Shown in pieces: positions 3,061-11,257 of a stretch of DNA of 64,000 nt; the stretch's first letter is position 1, and each line of letters begins with the position of its first letter. A program made the position numbers and the translations under genes. The stretch is from Gelidibacter mesophilus DSM 14095. GTDB lineage: Bacteria > Bacteroidota > Bacteroidia > Flavobacteriales > Flavobacteriaceae. The DNA lies in contig NZ_AUHD01000005.1 of assembly GCF_000423005.1 (NCBI RefSeq), positions 248,001-312,000 of the forward strand, written 5' to 3'. The notes beneath the pieces were generated by a model, which was not told the DNA's origin, ran no database searches, and was given only the letters and a program-made list of their open reading frames with translations.

Positions 3061-3092
3061 CAAATATATATTTTAATTTAGAATAGAGCGAA
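3061..3092 (-). promoter_or_regulatory. Promoter of the DUF805 gene
   Basis: On the minus strand a -7 box TATATTTG (3061-3068) lies 32 bp before the DUF805 ATG. A TTCG element (3089-3092), close to the TTTG -33 consensus, is 20 bp further upstream, inside the 3' end of trpA. Confidence 0.5.
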
Positions 3093-3849
3093 CGAAGTTA
3101 CCGATATTATCTGTAGTATTGCTTGTAAGATCTTTAATGAATGCACTTCCAATAATGGCACCTTTTGCATACGTAGTGGCTTGCGTAAAGGATTCATGAT
3201 CAGAAATTCCGAAACCTATGATTTGCGGATTATTCAGGTTCATATCAGCTATACGTTTGAAATAATCTGTTTGAGTGTCTCCAAAACCAGAACTGCTTCC
3301 AGTAACACTGGCGCTACTTACCATATAAATAAAACCTTTTGAAATGGAATCGATAAAACGAATGCGCTCCTCGGAAGTTTGTGGTGTAATCAAAAATGCG
3401 TTGATGATGTCATGTTGCTCAAAAATAGCTTTATAGTGCTGGTTATAAACATCTACGGGCAGATCTGGAATAATAAGTCCGTCAATGCCAACTTCGGCAC
3501 ATTTCTTACAAAATGCTTCCACACCGTATTGCAAAATCGGATTAAAGTATCCCATAATAATGAGTGGAATTGTGACTGTTTTTCTGATGTCTTTAAGTTG
3601 TTCAAAAAGAAGTTCTGTAGTCATCCCATTTTTTAAAGCTTGGGTTGAACTTGCCTGAATGGTTGGTCCATCCGCCAAAGGATCACTAAAAGGCAATCCG
3701 ATTTCTATCATTTCCACACCGTTTTTTTCCAAATCTTGGATGATGCCTGCTGTTTCATTGAGATTTGGGTAGCCGGCGGTGAAGTATATTGAAAGTAGCT
3801 TTCCGTTACTGTTTTCTTGTAGTTTTTGATTTATTCTATTCATGTTCAC
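3073..3849 (-). CDS. trpA: Tryptophan synthase alpha chain
   Basis: A 258-residue TIM-barrel protein that cleaves indole-3-glycerol phosphate to indole and glyceraldehyde 3-phosphate and channels indole to TrpB. Motifs: residues 47-62 MIEIGLPFSDPLADGP (catalytic Glu and Asp region), GIDGLIIPDLP near 125, and FGISDHESF with GSAFIKDL at the phosphate site. Length is normal. It is the last gene of the trp operon and is separated from trpB by 341 bp of repeats and hairpins. A second ATG two codons in is also possible. No missing catalytic residue was seen. Confidence 0.96.
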   Translation of the reverse strand: MNMNRINQKLQENSNGKLLSIYFTAGYPNLNETAGIIQDLEKNGVEMIEIGLPFSDPLADGPTIQASSTQALKNGMTTELLFEQLKDIRKTVTIPLIIMGYFNPILQYGVEAFCKKCAEVGIDGLIIPDLPVDVYNQHYKAIFEQHDIINAFLITPQTSEERIRFIDSISKGFIYMVSSASVTGSSSGFGDTQTDYFKRIADMNLNNPQIIGFGISDHESFTQATTYAKGAIIGSAFIKDLTSNTTDNIGNFVRSILN

Positions 3850-3867
3850 TTCCCGCGAAAACGGGAA
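3850..3867. repeat. Palindromic repeat, trp copy 1
   Basis: TTCCCGCGAAAACGGGAA: 7-bp arms (TTCCCG / CGGGAA core), directly abutting the trpA start codon. It belongs to the same family as the copies at 3887, 5381, 5545, 8123, 8366 and 8952. Confidence 0.75.
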
Positions 3868-3886
3868 TCATTTTTAGTTAAACTTC

Positions 3887-3906
3887 ATTCCCGCGAAAGC
3901 GGGAAT
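3887..3906. repeat. Palindromic repeat, trp copy 2
   Basis: ATTCCCGCGAAAGCGGGAAT, a near-perfect 20-bp palindrome in the trpB-trpA gap, 19 bp from copy 1 and in the same orientation, so the two form a tandem pair. Confidence 0.8.
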
Positions 3907-3969
3907 CTCATCTTGTTAATTTCAATTTTAGTTCTTCTCCTTTTGATGGAGGATTGGCTTTTACCTTCC

Positions 3970-3999
3970 GTATTCAGTTTCTTAATAGAAACTGAATAC
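3970..3999. repeat. 12-bp perfect hairpin in the trpB-trpA gap
   Basis: GTATTCAGTTTC and GAAACTGAATAC pair perfectly around a 6-nt loop (TTAATA). No T tract follows on the minus strand, so it is not a typical terminator. It could stabilise or process the trpB mRNA 3' end or be another dispersed repeat. The rest of 3850-4190 holds only purine-rich degenerate sequence and no convincing gene. Confidence 0.6.
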
Positions 4000-4190
4000 A
4001 CTTTCCGTTTAAAAAAGGAAGGAATTCTTATTAGTAGCACTTTAATCACAATTATTATTCAAATCAGCCGTGACCGCATTAAGGATTGCTCACGATTTAA
4101 TTATTAATCGAATGTTGTCGGAGCTGATAGAAGCGAGCGACTATCAAAAGCGCAACCCATTAACATGACATCCTAACACTAATTAAAACA

Positions 4191-5372
4191 TTACAATTTA
4201 AAGTGCTTTATATAAGTCTCCAAATCCTTATCGCCACGACCTGACAAACTAACCACAACGATGGCATCAGGTGGAAACTTTTTATGTTGAAGAACGGCCA
4301 AGGCATGAGAACTTTCAATGGCCGGAATAATTCCTTCCATTTTACAGAGTTCCAAACCTGATGTCATAGCATCATCATCGGTAATGGCTATGAATTCTGC
4401 CCGTCCACTTGTGTACAAATGGGCATGCATAGGTCCTACACCAGGATAATCCAATCCCGCAGAAATACTGTAAGGCTCGGTAATTTGCCCATCTTGTGTT
4501 TGCATTAAAAGTGTTTTACTACCATGAATAATCCCTTCCTTTCCTAAAACGGAAGTAGCCGCACTTTCACCGGAATGTACTCCTTTCCCGGCTGCCTCCA
4601 CGGCAATAAGCTTGACGTCTTTATCCTCCAAGAAGTGATAAAAGGCCCCCGCAGCATTACTGCCACCACCCACACAAGCCACTACATAATCGGGTTTTGA
4701 GGTGCCTTCTTTTTCTTTGAGCTGCCATTGGATTTCTTCAGAAACAATAGCCTGAAAACGCGCCACCATATCTGGATAGGGGTGCGGGCCTACCACGCTG
4801 CCTATAATATAATGGGTGTCCACAGGGTTGTTGATCCAATCGCGAATGGCTTCATTGGTTGCATCCTTTAAAGTACGGCTCCCAGAAAGTGCAGGAAGAA
4901 CTTTAGCGCCCAGCATTTTCATTCGGGCGACATTGGGCGCTTGTCGGGCAATGTCAATTTCGCCCATGTAGACAATACATTCCAATCCCATCAGGGCACA
5001 AACCGTTGCTGTGGCCACGCCATGCTGACCAGCGCCAGTTTCCGCAATGATTCTATGCTTGCCAAGACGTTTAGCCATTAATATTTGACCAATGGTGTTG
5101 TTGATTTTATGAGCACCCGTGTGGTTAAGATCTTCGCGCTTCAAATATATTTTGGTATGGTATTTCTCACTTAATCTTTTTGCGAAGTAGAGTGGGGAAG
5201 GACGGCCTACATAATCTTTAAGCAGCGCATTGAATTCTTCTTGGAATTCTGGTTCTGCCATAACTTTTAGATAGTTTTGGCGCAATTCTTCCACATTGGG
5301 ATAAAGCATTTCTGGAATGAATGCGCCACCAAATTCCCCATAATATCCTTTTTCGTCGATGTTGTATGTCAT
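4191..5372 (-). CDS. trpB: Tryptophan synthase beta chain
   Basis: A 393-residue PLP enzyme that condenses indole with L-serine to give tryptophan. I place the start at 5372 ([18 protein letters not shown]), which matches the family N-terminus. The in-frame extension to 5420 is repeat-derived sequence (KISAFAG). Motifs: [13 protein letters not shown] with the PLP-binding Lys, [19 protein letters not shown] at the phosphate loop and SGRGDKDL near the C-terminus. With this start trpF no longer overlaps it; the gap is 44 bp and contains a degenerate palindrome. Confidence 0.95.
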
Positions 5373-5380
5373 AATGTTTG

Positions 5381-5399
5381 TTCCTGCGAAGGCAGAAAT
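5381..5399. repeat. Palindromic repeat, trp copy 3 (degenerate)
   Basis: TTCCTGCGAAGGCAGAAA retains most of the family palindrome with one arm mutated. It sits between trpF and the true trpB start and creates a false in-frame extension of trpB. Confidence 0.6.
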
Positions 5400-5416
5400 C
5401 TTGCTTTTTTGAGACT

Positions 5417-6196
5417 TCACGGGTTTTCAAAACCTTTGAGGTCAGGGTTAATGTTATGTTTAAATTTTTTTAACAATGCGATGTTTTTCAATCCGGGTTC
5501 CATCTCGAATTTACTGTTGACGTCGATGGCGTGGCAATACTGAGATTCCTGTTTTTGCAGGAATTTGGCGAGCTTGTCTGCTTCCTCCAAGCCAATCCCT
5601 CCGCTTAAAAAATAAGGTTTGGTGGAAGGGTAATTTTTCAAAACTTCCCAATTGAAAGCATACCCGTTGCCGCCCGGTAATTTCCCTTTGGTATCGAACA
5701 AATAATAATCACACACCAATTCGTAAGGCTGTAATTTGTCAAAATTGAAATGGTTTTTGATGGAGAACACTTTAATTATTCCAATTTGTACGTCATTGCG
5801 AGCGAAGCGTGGCAATCTTTTTTCCTTTATAGAGCTCACTTCGTCAATTCTCTCTTCAAAAAGACGTCTTAACTTCAAGCAAAACTCCGGTGGTTCCTCC
5901 CCATGCAACTGCACCAGATCCAAACCGTGTTTTTTTGTCTTTTCTAAAATTTCCTCAATTGACGCATTCACAAATACGCCCACTTTCTTAATATGTGAAG
6001 GTAATTCTGGAATGGTACCATCGAAAAACCGCGACGATTTTTCATAAAATATAAATCCAAGATAATCGGGCTGGAGCAAAGCAATTTCAGCGATATTGTC
6101 GCTGTATTTCATGCCGCAAACTTTGATTCTTACCCCAGCTTTCTCAAAAGGAGAGGGGGTTTGATCCGGAATGTTTATGGTATTTTTGCTGCTCAT
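5417..6196 (-). CDS. trpF: Phosphoribosylanthranilate isomerase with repeat-derived insertions
   Basis: It isomerises N-(5-phosphoribosyl)anthranilate to the carboxyphenylamino-deoxyribulose intermediate. The core is recognisable: [12 protein letters not shown] with the catalytic Cys (residues 24-35), LVQLHGEE (94-101), IIKVFSI after the insert, [13 protein letters not shown] with the catalytic Asp, and AIDVNSKFE near the end. At 259 residues it is about 50 longer than the usual 205-215. The excess is an N-terminal stretch before IKVCGM, an in-frame block at about residues 114-136 containing RLPRFARND, and a short palindrome encoding FLQKQES. All the catalytic motifs remain and the frame is open, so it may still work. 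The 3' neighbour is trpB. Confidence 0.9.
5545..5564. repeat. Palindromic repeat inside trpF (copy 4)
   Basis: ATTCCTGTTTTTGCAGGAAT: 7-bp arms around TTTTTG, within the coding sequence and translated in frame as part of FLQKQES just before the conserved AIDVNSKFE segment. Confidence 0.65.
5791..5818. repeat. GCGAGCGAAGC-type repeat inserted in trpF
   Basis: The core CATTGCGAGCGAAGCG followed by TGGCAATCT resembles a dispersed palindromic repeat seen in several bacterial genomes (from memory, not searched). It differs in sequence from the TTCCTGCG family. Here it encodes RLPRFARND in frame within TrpF. Confidence 0.65.
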
Positions 6197-6252
6197 TTAA
6201 GTCTTGGTTAAACTGAGTTTTATATAAGTAATGCCCTCCTTTTTTGGAGGAA

Positions 6253-7035
6253 TTAGAGGAGGTTTTTAATGAATGATTTTGCACTTTCTCCTGCATTATC
6301 TGTTTTCATGAAATTTTCTCCAATTAGAAAACCTTGATAGCCGTATGGTTGTAATTCTTTGATAGCTTCAACGTTGCTGATACCGCTTTCTGAGATCTTT
6401 ATAAGATCGTTCGGAATTAACGTGCTCAAATGTTTGCTTGTTTCGAGACTGACCTCGAAGGTTTTTAAATTTCTATTATTAACGCCCATCATGTCTAAAC
6501 TGGGCATGACAGATTTGTGCAATTCTTCCTCGTTATGGATCTCTAGAAGCACTTCGAGGGTTAGGTTTTTTGCCAGTTCTGACAATTGCTTAATTTCTTT
6601 TTGGGTTAAAATAGCAGCAATAAGCAAAATAACATCGGCGCCATACGCTTTGGCTTCCAATATTTGGTACGGATCGATGATAAATTCTTTTCGTAACAAT
6701 GGTAAATTACAACTGGCCCTTGCCAATAGTAAATCGTCTAAAGAGCCCCCAAAATATTTCCCATCGGTCAAAACCGACATCCCGCAAACTCCAGCAAATT
6801 CATAACCTTGCGCGACGTCAAATACGTTGAGGTTTTGATTTATAATGGACTTCGATGGCGAACGACGCTTGTGTTCAGCAATAATGCCTGAATCACTATT
6901 CTTTAAATTATCAACTAGAGAAATCGTTTCTCTTTCAAACAACACCGATTGCTCCAATTGTGAAGTAGGAATAATTGATTTTCTTAAATCAACTTCTTTT
7001 CGTTTATCAGTAACTATTTTATCTAGAATATTCAT
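6253..7035 (-). CDS. trpC: Indole-3-glycerol phosphate synthase
   Basis: A 260-residue TIM-barrel enzyme that closes the indole ring to make indole-3-glycerol phosphate, the TrpA substrate. I chose the ATG at 7035 (MNILDKIVTDKRKEVDLRK), the usual start. The in-frame ORF to 7104 adds ACPSETFAEAGRL, which is translated repeat. Motifs: IIAEHKRRSPSKS (catalytic Lys), LRKEFIIDPYQ (second Lys), VLLEIHNEEEL and GVNNRNLKTF, then ISESGI near the phosphate site. All catalytic positions look intact. trpD ends 86 bp upstream. Confidence 0.95.
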   Translation of the reverse strand: MNILDKIVTDKRKEVDLRKSIIPTSQLEQSVLFERETISLVDNLKNSDSGIIAEHKRRSPSKSIINQNLNVFDVAQGYEFAGVCGMSVLTDGKYFGGSLDDLLLARASCNLPLLRKEFIIDPYQILEAKAYGADVILLIAAILTQKEIKQLSELAKNLTLEVLLEIHNEEELHKSVMPSLDMMGVNNRNLKTFEVSLETSKHLSTLIPNDLIKISESGISNVEAIKELQPYGYQGFLIGENFMKTDNAGESAKSFIKNLL

Positions 7036-7060
7036 TTTTTTCAATCTTGTCTTCAGTCTT

Positions 7061-7087
7061 CCCGCCTCCGCAAAAGTTTCGGACGGG
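7061..7087. repeat. Degenerate inverted repeat between trpD and trpC
   Basis: CCCGCCTCCG and TTTCGGACGGG form an imperfect inverted repeat of about 27 bp. In the minus frame it reads CPSETFAEAGR, giving a spurious N-terminal extension of trpC. Confidence 0.5.
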
Positions 7088-7121
7088 CATGCAGTCTTCA
7101 GCATCTGATTTATACTGCGGA

Positions 7122-8117
7122 CTATTTTTTACTTAGTTCAACCAATTTATTAAATTTCTCGTTTGCTTTACCGCTTAGCAATGCCTCCTTTGCCAATCCA
7201 AAACTGTCTTCCTCAGATTTTTTGGTGACTGTCGCAATGGCCATCGCGGCATTGGCGCAAACCACATTATTTTGTGCTTCACTGCCTTGACCATTTAATA
7301 TTTGGGTAAAAATATTAGCGGCACTCTCTATAGAATCTCCACCGTAAATATCGCTTTGCTTTAAAATCTCTACGCCAAAAAAGTCCGGGGAGATAATGGT
7401 TTCTGAAGTATTGCGAACCACCTTGGCTGGCCCTGTCAATGAGATTTCATCATAACCATCCAAAGCATGCAGAATGGTGTAGTTGATAGCTGTGTTTTGG
7501 TAGAGATAGCTATACATTCTAAGCAATTCCAAATTGAAAACACCCACCAATTGATTTTTTGGAAATGCCGGATTGACCATCGGTCCTAACATATTGAAAA
7601 ATGTTTTCACCGCTAAGTCCTTACGGATGGGTGCCACATTTTTCATGGCAGGGTGGAAGAGTGGCGCGTGTAAAACGCAGATACTAGCCTCGTCCAAAGA
7701 CCGTTTTAGAAAATTAATATCTGAAGTGAATTTAATGCCCAAATACTCCATGACGTTCGAAGAGCCACAAGCAGAAGAAACGCCGTAATTGCCATGTTTG
7801 GTTACATTGACGCCTGCTCCTGCAGTGACAAAAGATGCTAAGGTAGAAATATTAAAAGTGTCTTTTCCATCGCCGCCAGTGCCGCATAAATCGATGCCGT
7901 TGTATTCGTCCAAATCTACGTGTAGGCATAATTCCAAAAGTGCATCCCTAAAACCTTGCAATTCTTCAATGGTGATGCTTCGCATCATATACACCGTAAG
8001 GAAAGATGCTATCTGGCTTTGATTATAATGTCCTTTCGAGATATTGACCAAGACGTGTTTCGCTTCTTCGCTAGAGATGCTTTCTTGGTTGATGAGTCTG
8101 TTGAGTATGTGTTTCAT
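7122..8117 (-). CDS. trpD: Anthranilate phosphoribosyltransferase
   Basis: A 331-residue enzyme that transfers phosphoribose from PRPP to anthranilate. The N-terminal helical domain (residues 1-65) precedes the PRPP-binding signature CGTGGDGKDTFNIST at about 80-95. The downstream TKHGNYGVSSACGSSNVME holds the KHGN anthranilate/PRPP contacts. Length and motifs are normal, and no insertion was seen, unlike trpF and trpG. It is a stand-alone TrpD, not a TrpGD fusion. The trpG-trpD gap of 226 bp contains a palindromic repeat and pyrimidine-rich degenerate sequence. Confidence 0.96.
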   Translation of the reverse strand: MKHILNRLINQESISSEEAKHVLVNISKGHYNQSQIASFLTVYMMRSITIEELQGFRDALLELCLHVDLDEYNGIDLCGTGGDGKDTFNISTLASFVTAGAGVNVTKHGNYGVSSACGSSNVMEYLGIKFTSDINFLKRSLDEASICVLHAPLFHPAMKNVAPIRKDLAVKTFFNMLGPMVNPAFPKNQLVGVFNLELLRMYSYLYQNTAINYTILHALDGYDEISLTGPAKVVRNTSETIISPDFFGVEILKQSDIYGGDSIESAANIFTQILNGQGSEAQNNVVCANAAMAIATVTKKSEEDSFGLAKEALLSGKANEKFNKLVELSKK

Positions 8118-8122
8118 ATTAC

Positions 8123-8140
8123 TTCCTGCGTAGGCAGGAA
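8123..8140. repeat. Palindromic repeat, trp copy 5
   Basis: TTCCTGCGTAGGCAGGAA, an 18-bp near-perfect palindrome, begins 6 bp upstream of the trpD start codon. The remainder of the 8118-8343 gap is pyrimidine-rich with a further degenerate copy near 8211-8235. Confidence 0.75.
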
Positions 8141-8343
8141 TCTTTTATTGTTAAACTTTATTCATTCTATATTAACTAAGGTTTGGATTATGTAAACCCT
8201 TCTCTTTTTTTTTCCTGCTTCCGCGGATTCCATCCACCTTCCATTTAAAAGGTGAGAATTTTTACAACTACTTAATTTTTGACATCTTTTATTAGATTTT
8301 ACATTTTAAAACTGAAGTAGTTACTTTCCCATAACTTCAAGGA

Positions 8344-8943
8344 TTAGCGCTGTAGATCTTCTGAGATTCCTGCCTTCGCAGGAATGCGAATCCAATTTTC
8401 CAATATCTTTTTCCCATCTGGTGTCAACACCGATTCGGGATGAAATTGCACTCCTTTTAAATCGTATGTTCTGTGGCGCAAGGACATCACCTGACCATTT
8501 TCATCATAGGAAGTAGCCTCCAATTCATCAGGAAGACGAGGATCAACTACCCAGGAGTGGTAACGTCCAACTTCAATGGTTTTATCCAATCCGTTGAAAA
8601 GAGATTCGTCGGTAACGCAACTTGTGACTTTGGTGGCCACACCATGATATACATTATCTAGATTGATTAAGGTGCCACCATAAACTTCACCAATGGCTTG
8701 CTGACCTAAACATACGCCCAAAATACTTTTTGTAGAAGCATAGGTTTTAATGATGGCTTTGAGCAATCCGGCTTCGTCAGGAATTCCTGGTCCTGGGGAT
8801 AGTACAATTTTTTCAAAGTTGTCTACTTCTTCAAGTGTGAGTTGGTCGTTTCGTTTTACAGTGACCTCGCAACCTAAATCTTCAAGATAATGAACGAGAT
8901 TGTAGGTAAAACTGTCGTAATTGTCTATAACTAGTACTTTCAT
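8344..8943 (-). CDS. trpG: Anthranilate synthase component II (glutamine amidotransferase)
   Basis: A class I glutamine amidotransferase that hydrolyses glutamine and passes ammonia to TrpE. Motifs: VIDNYDSFTYNLVHYL at the start, SPGPGIPDEAG, ILGVCLGQQAIGE with the nucleophile Cys, and GVQFHPESV with the His-Glu pair. At 199 residues it is about 10 longer than typical. The last 13 residues (RIPAKAGISEDLQ plus R) come from a palindromic repeat at 8366-8385 that overruns the normal end after ILENW. The catalytic core is intact. TrpE lies 66 bp upstream. Confidence 0.95.
   Translation of the reverse strand: MKVLVIDNYDSFTYNLVHYLEDLGCEVTVKRNDQLTLEEVDNFEKIVLSPGPGIPDEAGLLKAIIKTYASTKSILGVCLGQQAIGEVYGGTLINLDNVYHGVATKVTSCVTDESLFNGLDKTIEVGRYHSWVVDPRLPDELEATSYDENGQVMSLRHRTYDLKGVQFHPESVLTPDGKKILENWIRIPAKAGISEDLQR
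8366..8385. repeat. Palindromic repeat overlapping the trpG 3' end (copy 6)
   Basis: ATTCCTGCCTTCGCAGGAAT, a 20-bp palindrome with 8-bp arms, supplies the codons for IPAKAGI at the TrpG C-terminus. Confidence 0.8.
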
Positions 8944-9009: not shown

Positions 9010-10413
9010 TTATATGTCTTTTGCCATTTCAATGGCCTTGGTCAGTGCGCCCAACTTATTATATACTTCCTGCAGTTCATCATCAGGATTTGATTTTGAA
9101 ACCAAGCCCGCGCCAGCTTGCCAATGCAATTGATGGTTTTTGCTCAAAAAAGTTCTGATCATAATGGCATGATTAAAATTACCTTCAAAATCCATAAATC
9201 CAATGGCACCACCGTAAAAATCGCGACTCGTTTTTTCGTATTTTTCAATAAGTTGCATGGCCTTGTGTTTTGGTGCGCCACTCAACGTACCAGCGGGAAA
9301 TGTATCGGCTACCATTTGCATGGTGGTCGTGCCCTTATGTTTTGTGCCCGTAACCTTACTCACGAGGTGGATGACGTGGGAAAAGAACTGCACTTCTCTG
9401 TATTTATCAACGGTAACTTTACTGCCGTTGCGGCTCAAATCATTTCTTGCCAAATCGACGAGCATCACATGTTCTGCATTTTCTTTGTCATCAACCGCTA
9501 GTTGTTTGGCGAGTTCCGCATCTTTTTCGTCATCACCAGTCCGTTTAAAAGTACCTGCAATTGGATGGATTTCCGCGAGATCTTCTTTGATAACGAGTTG
9601 TGCTTCTGGAGAACTTCCAAAAATCTTGAAATCGCCATAATCAAAATAGAAAAGATAAGGAGACGGATTGATGCTACGTAAAGCACGATACACATTAAAT
9701 TCATCGCCTTTAAATTGCTGTGAGAACTTTTTGGAGAGAACCAATTGAAACACGTCCCCTCGGGCACAGTGTTTTTTTGCTAAGGCAACATTGTTTTTAT
9801 AGTCGTCATCAGTTAAATTTGAGGTCGTTTCACCAGCGGTCGAAAAATTGAAAGCCGCAAAGTTCTTTGATTTGATCAGTTGTAAAATCTCGTCAATATT
9901 ATTATCGGTATCATAACAATGGGCAAATACATAAGCCTCATTTTTAAAATGGTTGATGGCGATAATGTTTTGGTATACCGCATAAGAGATATCCGGAATA
10001 TCTTGGTGGCCTTCCTTTTTTGAGATCTCTACGTCTTCAAAATAGCGCACCGCATCATAAGCAATATATCCAAAAATACCATTGTTGATAAACTTAAACG
10101 ATTTGTCAGAATGGGTTTTAAAACGCTGTGTGAATTGATGGATAACATTGGTAACGTTGGTATGGTCATCAATGTTTTGGGTAACGACGCTTTTATCAGG
10201 AAAGCTTTCCGTGATCACTTCATCCTTTACTTTTATAGACGCGATGGGATTGCAACAGATATAGGAAAAACTATTGTCATTGCCATGATAATCGCTACTT
10301 TCCAGAAGAATACTGTTAGGGAATTTATCTCTGATTTTTAAATAAATACTTACTGGCGTGATCGTATCTGCAAGTATTTTTTTATAATGGGTGTATAGAT
10401 TATAAGACTTCAT
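9010..10413 (-). CDS. trpE: Anthranilate synthase component I
   Basis: A 467-residue chorismate-utilising enzyme that makes anthranilate with TrpG ammonia. The N-terminal part has SILLESSDYHGND, which includes the LLES element of the tryptophan feedback site. The C-terminal chorismate domain shows FQLVLSKKF, NPSPYLFYFD, IHPIAGTFKRTG, LVDLARNDL and FPAGTLSGAPK. Length is normal. It is the first structural gene of the operon; its ATG lies 26 nt after the attenuator hairpin. Enzyme level is probably controlled by attenuation and activity by Trp binding (family knowledge). Confidence 0.96.
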   Translation of the reverse strand: MKSYNLYTHYKKILADTITPVSIYLKIRDKFPNSILLESSDYHGNDNSFSYICCNPIASIKVKDEVITESFPDKSVVTQNIDDHTNVTNVIHQFTQRFKTHSDKSFKFINNGIFGYIAYDAVRYFEDVEISKKEGHQDIPDISYAVYQNIIAINHFKNEAYVFAHCYDTDNNIDEILQLIKSKNFAAFNFSTAGETTSNLTDDDYKNNVALAKKHCARGDVFQLVLSKKFSQQFKGDEFNVYRALRSINPSPYLFYFDYGDFKIFGSSPEAQLVIKEDLAEIHPIAGTFKRTGDDEKDAELAKQLAVDDKENAEHVMLVDLARNDLSRNGSKVTVDKYREVQFFSHVIHLVSKVTGTKHKGTTTMQMVADTFPAGTLSGAPKHKAMQLIEKYEKTSRDFYGGAIGFMDFEGNFNHAIMIRTFLSKNHQLHWQAGAGLVSKSNPDDELQEVYNKLGALTKAIEMAKDI

Positions 10414-10438
10414 AAGTTCAAAATGGTTATAAAAAATG

Positions 10439-10470
10439 AAAAAGGCCTGTCGTGAATGACAAGCCTTTTT
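10439..10470 (-). terminator. trp attenuator terminator
   Basis: On the minus strand AAAAAGGCTTGTC pairs with GACAGGCCTTTTT (13 bp with one G-U) around the 6-nt loop ATTCAC, and a T run follows. It lies between the leader peptide and trpE. The loop and top of the 3' arm contain TCACGA, complementary to TCGTGA at the leader-peptide stop, giving a plausible alternative (antiterminator) pairing. Confidence 0.85.
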
Positions 10471-10502
10471 TATATTAGATTTAAATATACTCTAGCATTA
10501 CC

Positions 10503-10559
10503 TCACGAATGTTGTTTCGAAAAGTTCCACCACCAAGTATGATTTAAAATTGTGTACAT
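10503..10559 (-). CDS. trpL: trp leader peptide with three tandem Trp codons
   Basis: An 18-codon ORF starting at ATG 10559-10557 encodes MYTILNHTWWWNFSKQHS and stops with TGA at 10505-10503. Codons 9-11 are TGG TGG TGG (10535-10527), an arrangement expected almost only of a trp attenuator. It starts about 8 nt after the predicted transcription start and is followed by a terminator before trpE. A ribosome stalled on the Trp codons would leave TCGTGA at the stop codon free to pair with TCACGA in the terminator. A ribosome reaching the stop would cover it and let the terminator form. The sequence is direct; the mechanism is inferred from classical attenuation. Confidence 0.88.
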   Translation of the reverse strand: MYTILNHTWWWNFSKQHS

Positions 10560-10572
10560 ATTTTTGTTTTGT

Positions 10573-10603
10573 CAAATATAGAAATCAATATTTAGTTATC
10601 AAA
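10573..10603 (-). promoter_or_regulatory. trp operon promoter (TTTG-N19-TATATTTG)
   Basis: The minus strand has TTTG (10603-10600), a 19-bp spacer and TATATTTG (10580-10573), a full match to the Bacteroidota sigma-A consensus. Transcription should start at about 10567, only about 8 nt before the trpL ATG. Confidence 0.8.
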
Positions 10604-10629
10604 TAATTTGGCAAAAAAATATAAAAAAG

Positions 10630-10670
10630 AATCCCGCTTCCGAAAAAAACTTCAGAAGCAGGATTTTTTT
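10630..10670 (-). terminator. Terminator of the MarR-YceI transcript
   Basis: AATCCCGCTTC and GAAGCAGGATT form an 11-bp stem with one mismatch around a 14-nt loop. On the minus strand the stem runs into a T-rich tract. It lies between the yceI stop and the trp promoter. Confidence 0.7.
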
Positions 10671-10702
10671 CTGCTAAATAGTTATAGAACCTAATTATAA
10701 GT

Positions 10703-11257
10703 TTAGAACTTAAGATTTACGTTTAAATCAAATTCGTCATAAATAGCTTTGTCTTTTAGATTGTCAAAGAAACTTGCCGATCTGAATTTGATGTCATATT
10801 TGGTACGGTCAACTTTAAGATCTGCGGTAGCTGTGTTTCCAACAACAAGCATATCAAAAGAGTTTGGGTGGGTGATGCCTTTGATGGTTAAATCGCCAGT
10901 TACTTTATATTTTCCGTCTTTTCCTGACACATTTGTGATTACGAACGTTGCAGCTGTATGCTTGTCTGTGCTGAAAAAATCATCTGATTTTAAATGCCCT
11001 TCAAGTTTGCCTTTCATTTCGCCATCGAGATCAGTTACCGTCAGGGTTGACATATCCATAGTAAAAGAGCCGCCGGTCAATTGTTTGCTATCGTTAAATT
11101 TAAGCGTGCCCTTTTGAAGCGTGATATGGCCTTCATGCTCGCCGGTTACTTTATGACCTTTCCAAGTGACTTTACTATTTTGAACGTCAACTTTAGTTTC
11201 GTTTGAAGTGATTACTGAACTGGCTACAAATGCCATTGCTAAAATGATTGTTTTCAT
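10703..11257 (-). CDS. YceI family periplasmic lipid-binding protein
   Basis: A 184-residue YceI-like protein with a signal peptide (MKTIILAMAFVASSVITSNE, cleavage near residue 18-20). The YceI lipocalin-like beta barrel shows VDVQNSKVTWKGHKVTGEHEG at the start, LKSDDFFSTDKHTAATFVIT in the middle, and the TIKGITHPNSFDM block. Members bind isoprenoid-type lipids in the periplasm; the ligand here is unknown. It follows the MarR gene by 37 bp with no promoter box seen between, so the two are probably one transcript controlled by MarR. Its own terminator is at 10630-10670. Confidence 0.9.
   Translation of the reverse strand: MKTIILAMAFVASSVITSNETKVDVQNSKVTWKGHKVTGEHEGHITLQKGTLKFNDSKQLTGGSFTMDMSTLTVTDLDGEMKGKLEGHLKSDDFFSTDKHTAATFVITNVSGKDGKYKVTGDLTIKGITHPNSFDMLVVGNTATADLKVDRTKYDIKFRSASFFDNLKDKAIYDEFDLNVNLKF

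Follow-up and report, generated by a model that had tools for sequence, protein, structure and literature searches.

The trp leader upstream of trpE in Gelidibacter mesophilus: a probable ribosome-mediated attenuator of Rfam family RF01692

In Gelidibacter mesophilus the first gene of the trp operon, trpE, is preceded by a short open reading frame (ORF) with three consecutive Trp codons and by an intrinsic terminator. This raises the question of whether a ribosome translating the leader ORF controls termination before trpE and, if so, by which RNA pairings. We analyzed the locus within a stretch of 64,000 nucleotides (the window) and in the genomes of relatives. An earlier note on this DNA had described a promoter, an 18-codon leader ORF, the run TGG TGG TGG and a terminator before trpE, and every one of these parts was found where it had been placed (Table 1).

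Table 1. Features of the trp leader locus and its surroundings, in window coordinates.
Feature	Position	Strand	Basis
TTTG, -33-type promoter element	10600..10603	-	sequence; 19 nt from the -7 box
-7 box TATATTTG (TAnnTTTG)	10573..10580	-	consensus and -12 to -5 position from PMC9723704
Predicted transcription start	10568	-	-7 box set at -12..-5
Leader ORF MYTILNHTWWWNFSKQHS, 18 codons; span includes the stop	10503..10559	-	sequence; same ORF pattern in 120 leaders
Leader start ATG; stop TGA	10559; 10505-10503	-	sequence
Three consecutive Trp codons TGGTGGTGG, proposed stall site	10527..10535	-	sequence
1:2 hairpin, holds the Trp codons	10480..10548	-	minimum-free-energy fold; overlaps RF01692 consensus hairpin
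Region 2, putative antiterminator element UCGUGA(G), overlaps last sense codon and stop	10502..10508	-	spacing, loop pairing
GCU, minor second part of region 2, pairs GGC 10465-10463 of terminator 5' arm	10494..10496	-	duplex prediction; weak, 3 bp
Region 3, proposed target of region 2: UUCACGA, terminator loop and first two bases of 3' arm	10450..10456	-	
Intrinsic terminator (3:4): 13-bp stem, 6-nt loop AUUCAC, U-rich tail	10439..10470	-	
Rfam RF01692 Bacteroid-trp match	10458..10579	-	58.3 bits; window E-value 0.00017
trpE, first gene of the operon	9010..10413	-	best NCBIfam match TIGR00564 trpE_most, 1.6e-129
trpG, trpD, trpC, trpF, trpB, trpA, in this order	3073..8943	-	NCBIfam matches
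Terminator-like hairpin after upstream same-strand gene (10703-11257)	10630..10665	-	sequence

The genes downstream of the leader were found in the order trpEGDCFBA. Curated NCBIfam cut-offs were exceeded by trpG_papA, trpD, one trpC model, trpB, and trpA, while TrpF stayed below and the trpE_most match reached 432.9 bits against a cut-off of 517.7. TrpF (5417-6196, - strand) is 259 amino acids long, and one NCBIfam profile matched it in two stretches, which suggests an insertion near residues 104-132. A dispersed repeat was suspected here, but at E 0.001 the 101-base stretch matched nowhere else in the genome.

On the - strand from 10760 to 10414, TAnnTTTG has a single occurrence, at 10580, so that no second promoter of this exact type is located between the leader and trpE. 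The terminator-like hairpin behind the upstream gene should, by its predicted role, insulate the trp promoter from upstream read-through.

An Rfam scan of the whole window gave RF01692 as the sole match at gathering score (cut-off 49 bits), with the model aligned end to end (1-131 of 131). The element is a member of Rfam RF01692 Bacteroid-trp ("Bacteroidete tryptophan peptide leader RNA") and hence already catalogued. As aligned, the RF01692 consensus pairs the 1:2 hairpin only and ends inside the 5' arm of the terminator, leaving the terminator loop and the 3' arm outside the Rfam model. A T-box or another Rfam riboswitch was rejected, since the window held no further match at gathering score, and a T-box was also absent from the 28 Rfam matches up to E 10 in 10300-10760. 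The weak Rfam matches in the leader region (BTnc231, Thr_leader) were all below their own cut-offs.

The Bacteroid-trp motif appears in Table 1 of Weinberg et al. 2010 as cis-regulatory "y" and switch "n" (PMC2864571). In Flavobacterium psychrophilum, an RF01692 element upstream of trp was noted in 2019 (PMC6414381), and a transcriptome study published in 2021 pointed strongly to attenuation by leader peptides ahead of amino-acid operons (PMC9723704). We found no description of an antiterminator for Bacteroid-trp in the literature searched, the supplements of which were outside our reach, so one may exist. The earlier note had been unsure how well such leaders are described in Flavobacteriia; the element turns out to be catalogued and to be widespread in the family. 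What we add to it is modest, namely comparative support for an antiterminator and a reach beyond the Rfam model.

We consider it very probable that this RF01692 member is a ribosome-mediated transcription attenuator of the trp operon, working through a ribosome-controlled 1:2 / 2:3 / 3:4 switch. The reading of the locus as Trp-codon leader attenuation, put forward in the earlier note, appears well founded in its parts, in the downstream operon and in the alternative pairing. Transcription would begin some 9 nt ahead of the leader AUG. Under a shortage of charged tRNA-Trp, the first ribosome would stall on the three Trp codons and cover region 1. Region 2 (UCGUGA, 18 nt past the last Trp codon) would then be free to pair with UCACGA of the emerging terminator (2:3), which would delay or block the 3:4 hairpin and allow trpE and the rest of the operon to be transcribed. 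When Trp is plentiful, the ribosome would reach the stop codon and cover region 2, or depart and let 1:2 form, and this hairpin would hide the region-2 element when it is uncovered by a ribosome. With region 2 hidden, the terminator would fold and transcription would end before trpE. Four points are inferred from the sequence: where transcription starts, that ribosomes stall, that 2:3 has kinetic priority, and how trp mRNA responds.

RF01692 matched all 9 genomes of the genus, among them that of the window, at least 178 of 249 genomes of the family, and at least 30 of 296 genomes of a phylum sample, 28 of these 30 belonging to the window's own family; the family and phylum counts are minima because the stricter filter used for them loses weak matches. 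This spread and the promoter type agree with a host of the Bacteroidota, and the promoter type and the Rfam family agree with the Flavobacteriaceae. The conservation within genus and family rules out a chance resemblance. We assembled 124 loci, which after removal of 4 duplicates gave 120 distinct leaders. Sixty of the 124 loci were hand-picked from the RF01692 matches of the family and the rest came from the genus, family, and phylum searches. A script picked the leaders by looking for neighbouring Trp codons, a promoter and a terminator-like stretch; for L043 and L101 its choice of ATG lies 18 nt upstream of a more likely start in the same frame.

Three consecutive TGG codons were present in 117 of the 120 leaders and two in the other 3, a conservation that is partly selection, because the leaders were chosen via RF01692, whose model itself contains UGGuGGUG, and because the script demanded neighbouring Trp codons. 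The commonest promoter arrangement was a TTG 19 or 20 nt upstream of the -7 box (51 and 37 of 120 leaders). In 116 of 120 leaders the gene that immediately follows on the same strand is trpE. L070 had no ORF in the 246 bases downstream, where the locus is cut short. In L006 and L007, both from the window's genus, a 99-aa ORF (MFQEKNFFVYIM...) lies between the attenuator and trpE; we take it to resemble a GIY-YIG nuclease. In a genome of another family (G481, L044/L160) the trp leader precedes a TrpB-like ORF and trpE is found further downstream, from which it follows that the attenuator goes with the first gene of the operon and not with trpE.

Leaders found via TrpE are free of the selection bias of the RF01692 model. 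We tested 22 RF01692-negative genomes of the family (20 named misses, G161, and G500; about 50 further misses were left out), of which 16 encode a TrpE with at least 51% identity. At 14 of these 16 trpE genes, a WW or WWW leader ORF followed by a terminator hairpin was found. The two others were L130, which lies at a contig edge, and L141, which has no such ORF. The same GGCTTGTC 5' arm recurred in 8 of the 14 leaders. Among 20 genomes tested from other families of the order and class, 17 have TrpE at 47% or more, and a WW or WWW leader was found at 15 of these 17 trpE loci, one of them (L157) an RF01692 match. The exceptions were L160, without a W-rich ORF right before trpE, and L149, which has a WLW ORF only and was not counted. 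RF01692 matched in two of the 17 genomes (L157, L160); L157 repeats L062, which left 14 leaders for the pairing tests.

As a control, an ORF of the laxer W.?W type was found in about 8% of random 450-nt stretches of these loci, the leaders themselves included. A rescan with Rfam of six trpE loci from other families and two from the window's own gave no gathering-score match at any of the eight. RF01692 under-counts the putative trp attenuators of the relatives; trpE leaders with WW or WWW that it missed are L126-L129, L131-L140, L146-L148, L150-L156, L158, L159, L161, and L162.

The pairing on which the proposed switch depends is that of TCGTGA (10508-10503) with TCACGA (10455-10450). It had been put forward from the window sequence, and in the relatives it was found conserved, with compensatory change. 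Counted from the last Trp codon, the element begins at 17-19 nt in 114 of 120 leaders and at 16-21 nt in 118. The stop codon, by contrast, varies between 11 nt before and 9 nt after the element's first base, and the ORFs, as picked, have 13-24 codons. The TGA stop was therefore rejected as a conserved feature. A constant element spacing together with a wandering stop codon is as predicted by selection for an RNA element and not for the end of a peptide. A ribosome covers about 12 nt downstream of its A site. One stalled on the Trp codons would free the element, and one at any of the observed stops would cover all or part of it. In 14 of the 14 family leaders missed by RF01692, the best complement to the loop was found 14-22 nt after the Trp run, compared to 23% in shuffles, although one of these complements is only 3 bp. 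A fixed element distance was not found outside the family, where 6 of 14 leaders had it at 14-22 nt compared to 21% in shuffles.

Covariation was assessed by swapping partners between leaders. For the 120 RF01692-type leaders the 2:3 duplex had -13.46 kcal/mol with its own partner and -13.10 kcal/mol with swapped ones; the swap test barely discriminates here, because nearly all of these leaders share one element. Thirty of 148 leaders had no TCACGA in the loop window, and in this divergent set own pairs reached -9.97 compared to -6.49 kcal/mol when swapped (sd 0.45), a difference found in 0 of 20,000 shuffles. Without six near-copies (n=24) the values were -10.28 and -6.49, again with 0 of 20,000 shuffles. 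The shuffles ignore the tree, so these counts are not probabilities, and own pairs ranked 1 to 14 of 30, not every row being supportive. Examples of the turnover in 2:3 sequence are GGATTCAG:CTGAATCC in L138, GTCGCAAT:ATTGCGAC in L116, and GCGATGA:TCATCGC in L134. Complementarity of regions 1 and 2 was likewise kept in the divergent leaders (-14.29 compared to -10.77; 0 of 20,000 shuffles). A search of the window's own genome for TCGTGA-N25..55-TCACGA gave one site and the reversed control pattern occurred 7 times per strand, so this search is not evidence either way. Altogether, the comparison of trpE upstream regions in relatives, a check proposed in the earlier note, gave conserved Trp codons, with the reservation about selection made above, and 2:3 and 1:2 pairings that covary.

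We also folded the leader along the growing transcript. The terminator hairpin was found to have -17.4 kcal/mol (z -7.7 compared to shuffles) and the leader from 10567 to 10431 to have -35.2 kcal/mol (z -5.1). With a ribosome on the Trp codons and the RNA end at 10450-10446, the predicted 2:3 probability was 0.95-0.98. Without a ribosome it was 0.00-0.05, and the 1:2 hairpin held most of the element (0.77-0.81). Once the RNA end reached 10444, the terminator won in the equilibrium fold despite the stalled ribosome, with 2:3 at 0.05 or less. Since the terminator wins at equilibrium, 2:3 must form first or act together with RNA polymerase pausing; our explanation is weakest at this point, where 2:3 would have to act ahead of a finished terminator. 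In the window leader, seven of the 2:3 pairs join region 2 to the loop and the top of the 3' arm, and three more involve the 5' arm. The 2:3 pairing removes the top two of the 13 terminator pairs, or five with the three 5'-arm pairs included, so that in the energy model 2:3 and the terminator exclude each other only in part and a pseudoknot holding both is possible.

We regard it as unlikely, though worth weighing, that the attenuator is the same but UCGUGA:UCACGA is no antiterminator, the stalled ribosome only breaking 1:2 or a loop pseudoknot tuning terminator strength or RNA polymerase pausing. The shortness of the 2:3 duplex (7 bp plus 3), next to which 8 to 11 of the 13 terminator pairs could still form, would fit such a reading, as would a terminator favoured at equilibrium and an RF01692 consensus that shows the 1:2 hairpin only. 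It is opposed by the loop complementarity, which within the family survives sequence change with almost the same spacing to the Trp codons, and by L146, L152, L153, and L162, where 2:3 extends into the 5' arm and does compete with the terminator; the 5' arm is also used by some leaders of other families (L062, L151, L153). That the leader ORF is not the sensor at all, the terminator being constitutive or under another ligand (T-box, TRAP, riboswitch), is very improbable, for although leader translation is itself a prediction here, with no Shine-Dalgarno sequence and a predicted 9-nt 5' UTR, RF01692 and no T-box was matched in the window, WW/WWW leader ORFs recur at trpE genes found via TrpE (14/16; 15/17, compared to about 8% for W.?W in random stretches), and the same genome has a His-rich leader at hisG and an FYFFF leader at pheA, each with a terminator-like hairpin.

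The -7 box of F. psychrophilum spans -12 to -5 (PMC9723704), and placing the window's box accordingly implies a 5' UTR of about 9 nt. Across the 120 leaders the implied 5' UTR peaks at 1 nt (20 leaders; 24 at 0-2 nt) and at 13-15 nt (45 leaders); two of the 120 lacked an exact TAnnTTTG, and two gave negative values from the script-picked start. The predicted transcripts of Flavobacterium johnsoniae have leaders longer than 10 nt in 87% of cases, and an A at -3 favours initiation in this species (PMC6847099). The window leader ORF has an A at -3, and no Shine-Dalgarno sequence was seen. In Sinorhizobium meliloti the trpL attenuator RNA begins at the trpL ATG (PMC7298713). The earlier note had given about 8 nt and called it unusually short for the mechanism; it is indeed short, but has precedent in the 24 leaders with an implied 0-2 nt and in the leaderless trpL of S. 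meliloti.

Two further loci of the window's own genome were found to have a similar layout. Upstream of hisG (L166, G000:C12) a leader ORF MNMTFIQSHHHHHHICTQAK with six His codons is followed by a terminator-like hairpin, in which CGTTTGAGT can pair (9 bp, -12.8 kcal/mol) with ACTCAAGCG, a stretch shortly behind the His codons. Upstream of pheA (L167, G000:C5) the leader ORF MKTINYTYHSLFYFFFSKGNETSYV (FYFFF) precedes a terminator-like hairpin, of which AGGTCTCG pairs with CGAGACTT located after the Phe codons (8 bp, -11.4 kcal/mol). The hisG and pheA leader loci gave no Rfam match at gathering score. F. psychrophilum has a conserved 5' element at hisG and a 5' element at pheA (PMC9723704). The trp, hisG, and pheA leaders differ in the repeated residue, so that residue identity follows the operon, and the similar layout at hisG and pheA suggests that one design could serve several amino acids.

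A broader generalization, which we hold to be evenly poised between right and wrong, is that leader-peptide Trp attenuation is old and common to almost all trp operons of the sampled class, lying mostly outside the present Rfam model beyond the window's family. Within the family, the antiterminator would be an unconventional one: the freed strand would capture the terminator loop, and its spacing would be set by the ribosome footprint from the Trp codons and not by the stop codon. All this would happen in bacteria that make no use of Shine-Dalgarno sequences, on transcripts whose 5' UTR is short or missing. Through the comparison, a motif known from the catalogue becomes a switch that can be tested and whose pairing partners are named. 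The data also point to a system in which to study how transcription and translation are coupled when initiation proceeds without a Shine-Dalgarno sequence and with hardly any 5' UTR.

Among known systems, RF01692 itself is closest; its model matches end to end and represents a Bacteroidota trp leader with the Trp codons in the hairpin, as here. Its consensus has neither a terminator nor an antiterminator, whereas the window leader has both, the antiterminator being predicted. The E. coli trp attenuator has consecutive Trp codons, two in number, the alternatives 1:2 / 2:3 / 3:4, and a terminator before trpE, and its region 2 pairs with the 5' arm of the terminator. With it the window leader shares the Trp-codon leader ORF, the terminator before trpE and, as predicted, the alternative folds. 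It differs in that no Shine-Dalgarno sequence was seen, in a predicted 5' UTR of about 9 nt, in three Trp codons, and in a region 2 that would bind mainly the terminator loop and not the 5' arm. The S. meliloti rnTrpL (PMC7298713) is an attenuator with no or almost no 5' UTR, as predicted here; its RNA starts at the ATG and the ORF as printed has one TGG, compared to about 9 nt before the ATG and three TGG in the window. F. psychrophilum resembles the window in the leader-peptide attenuation proposed at amino-acid operons and in RF01692 upstream of trp (PMC9723704, PMC6414381). We saw no antiterminator for it in these two papers, their supplements aside; one is proposed here for the window leader.
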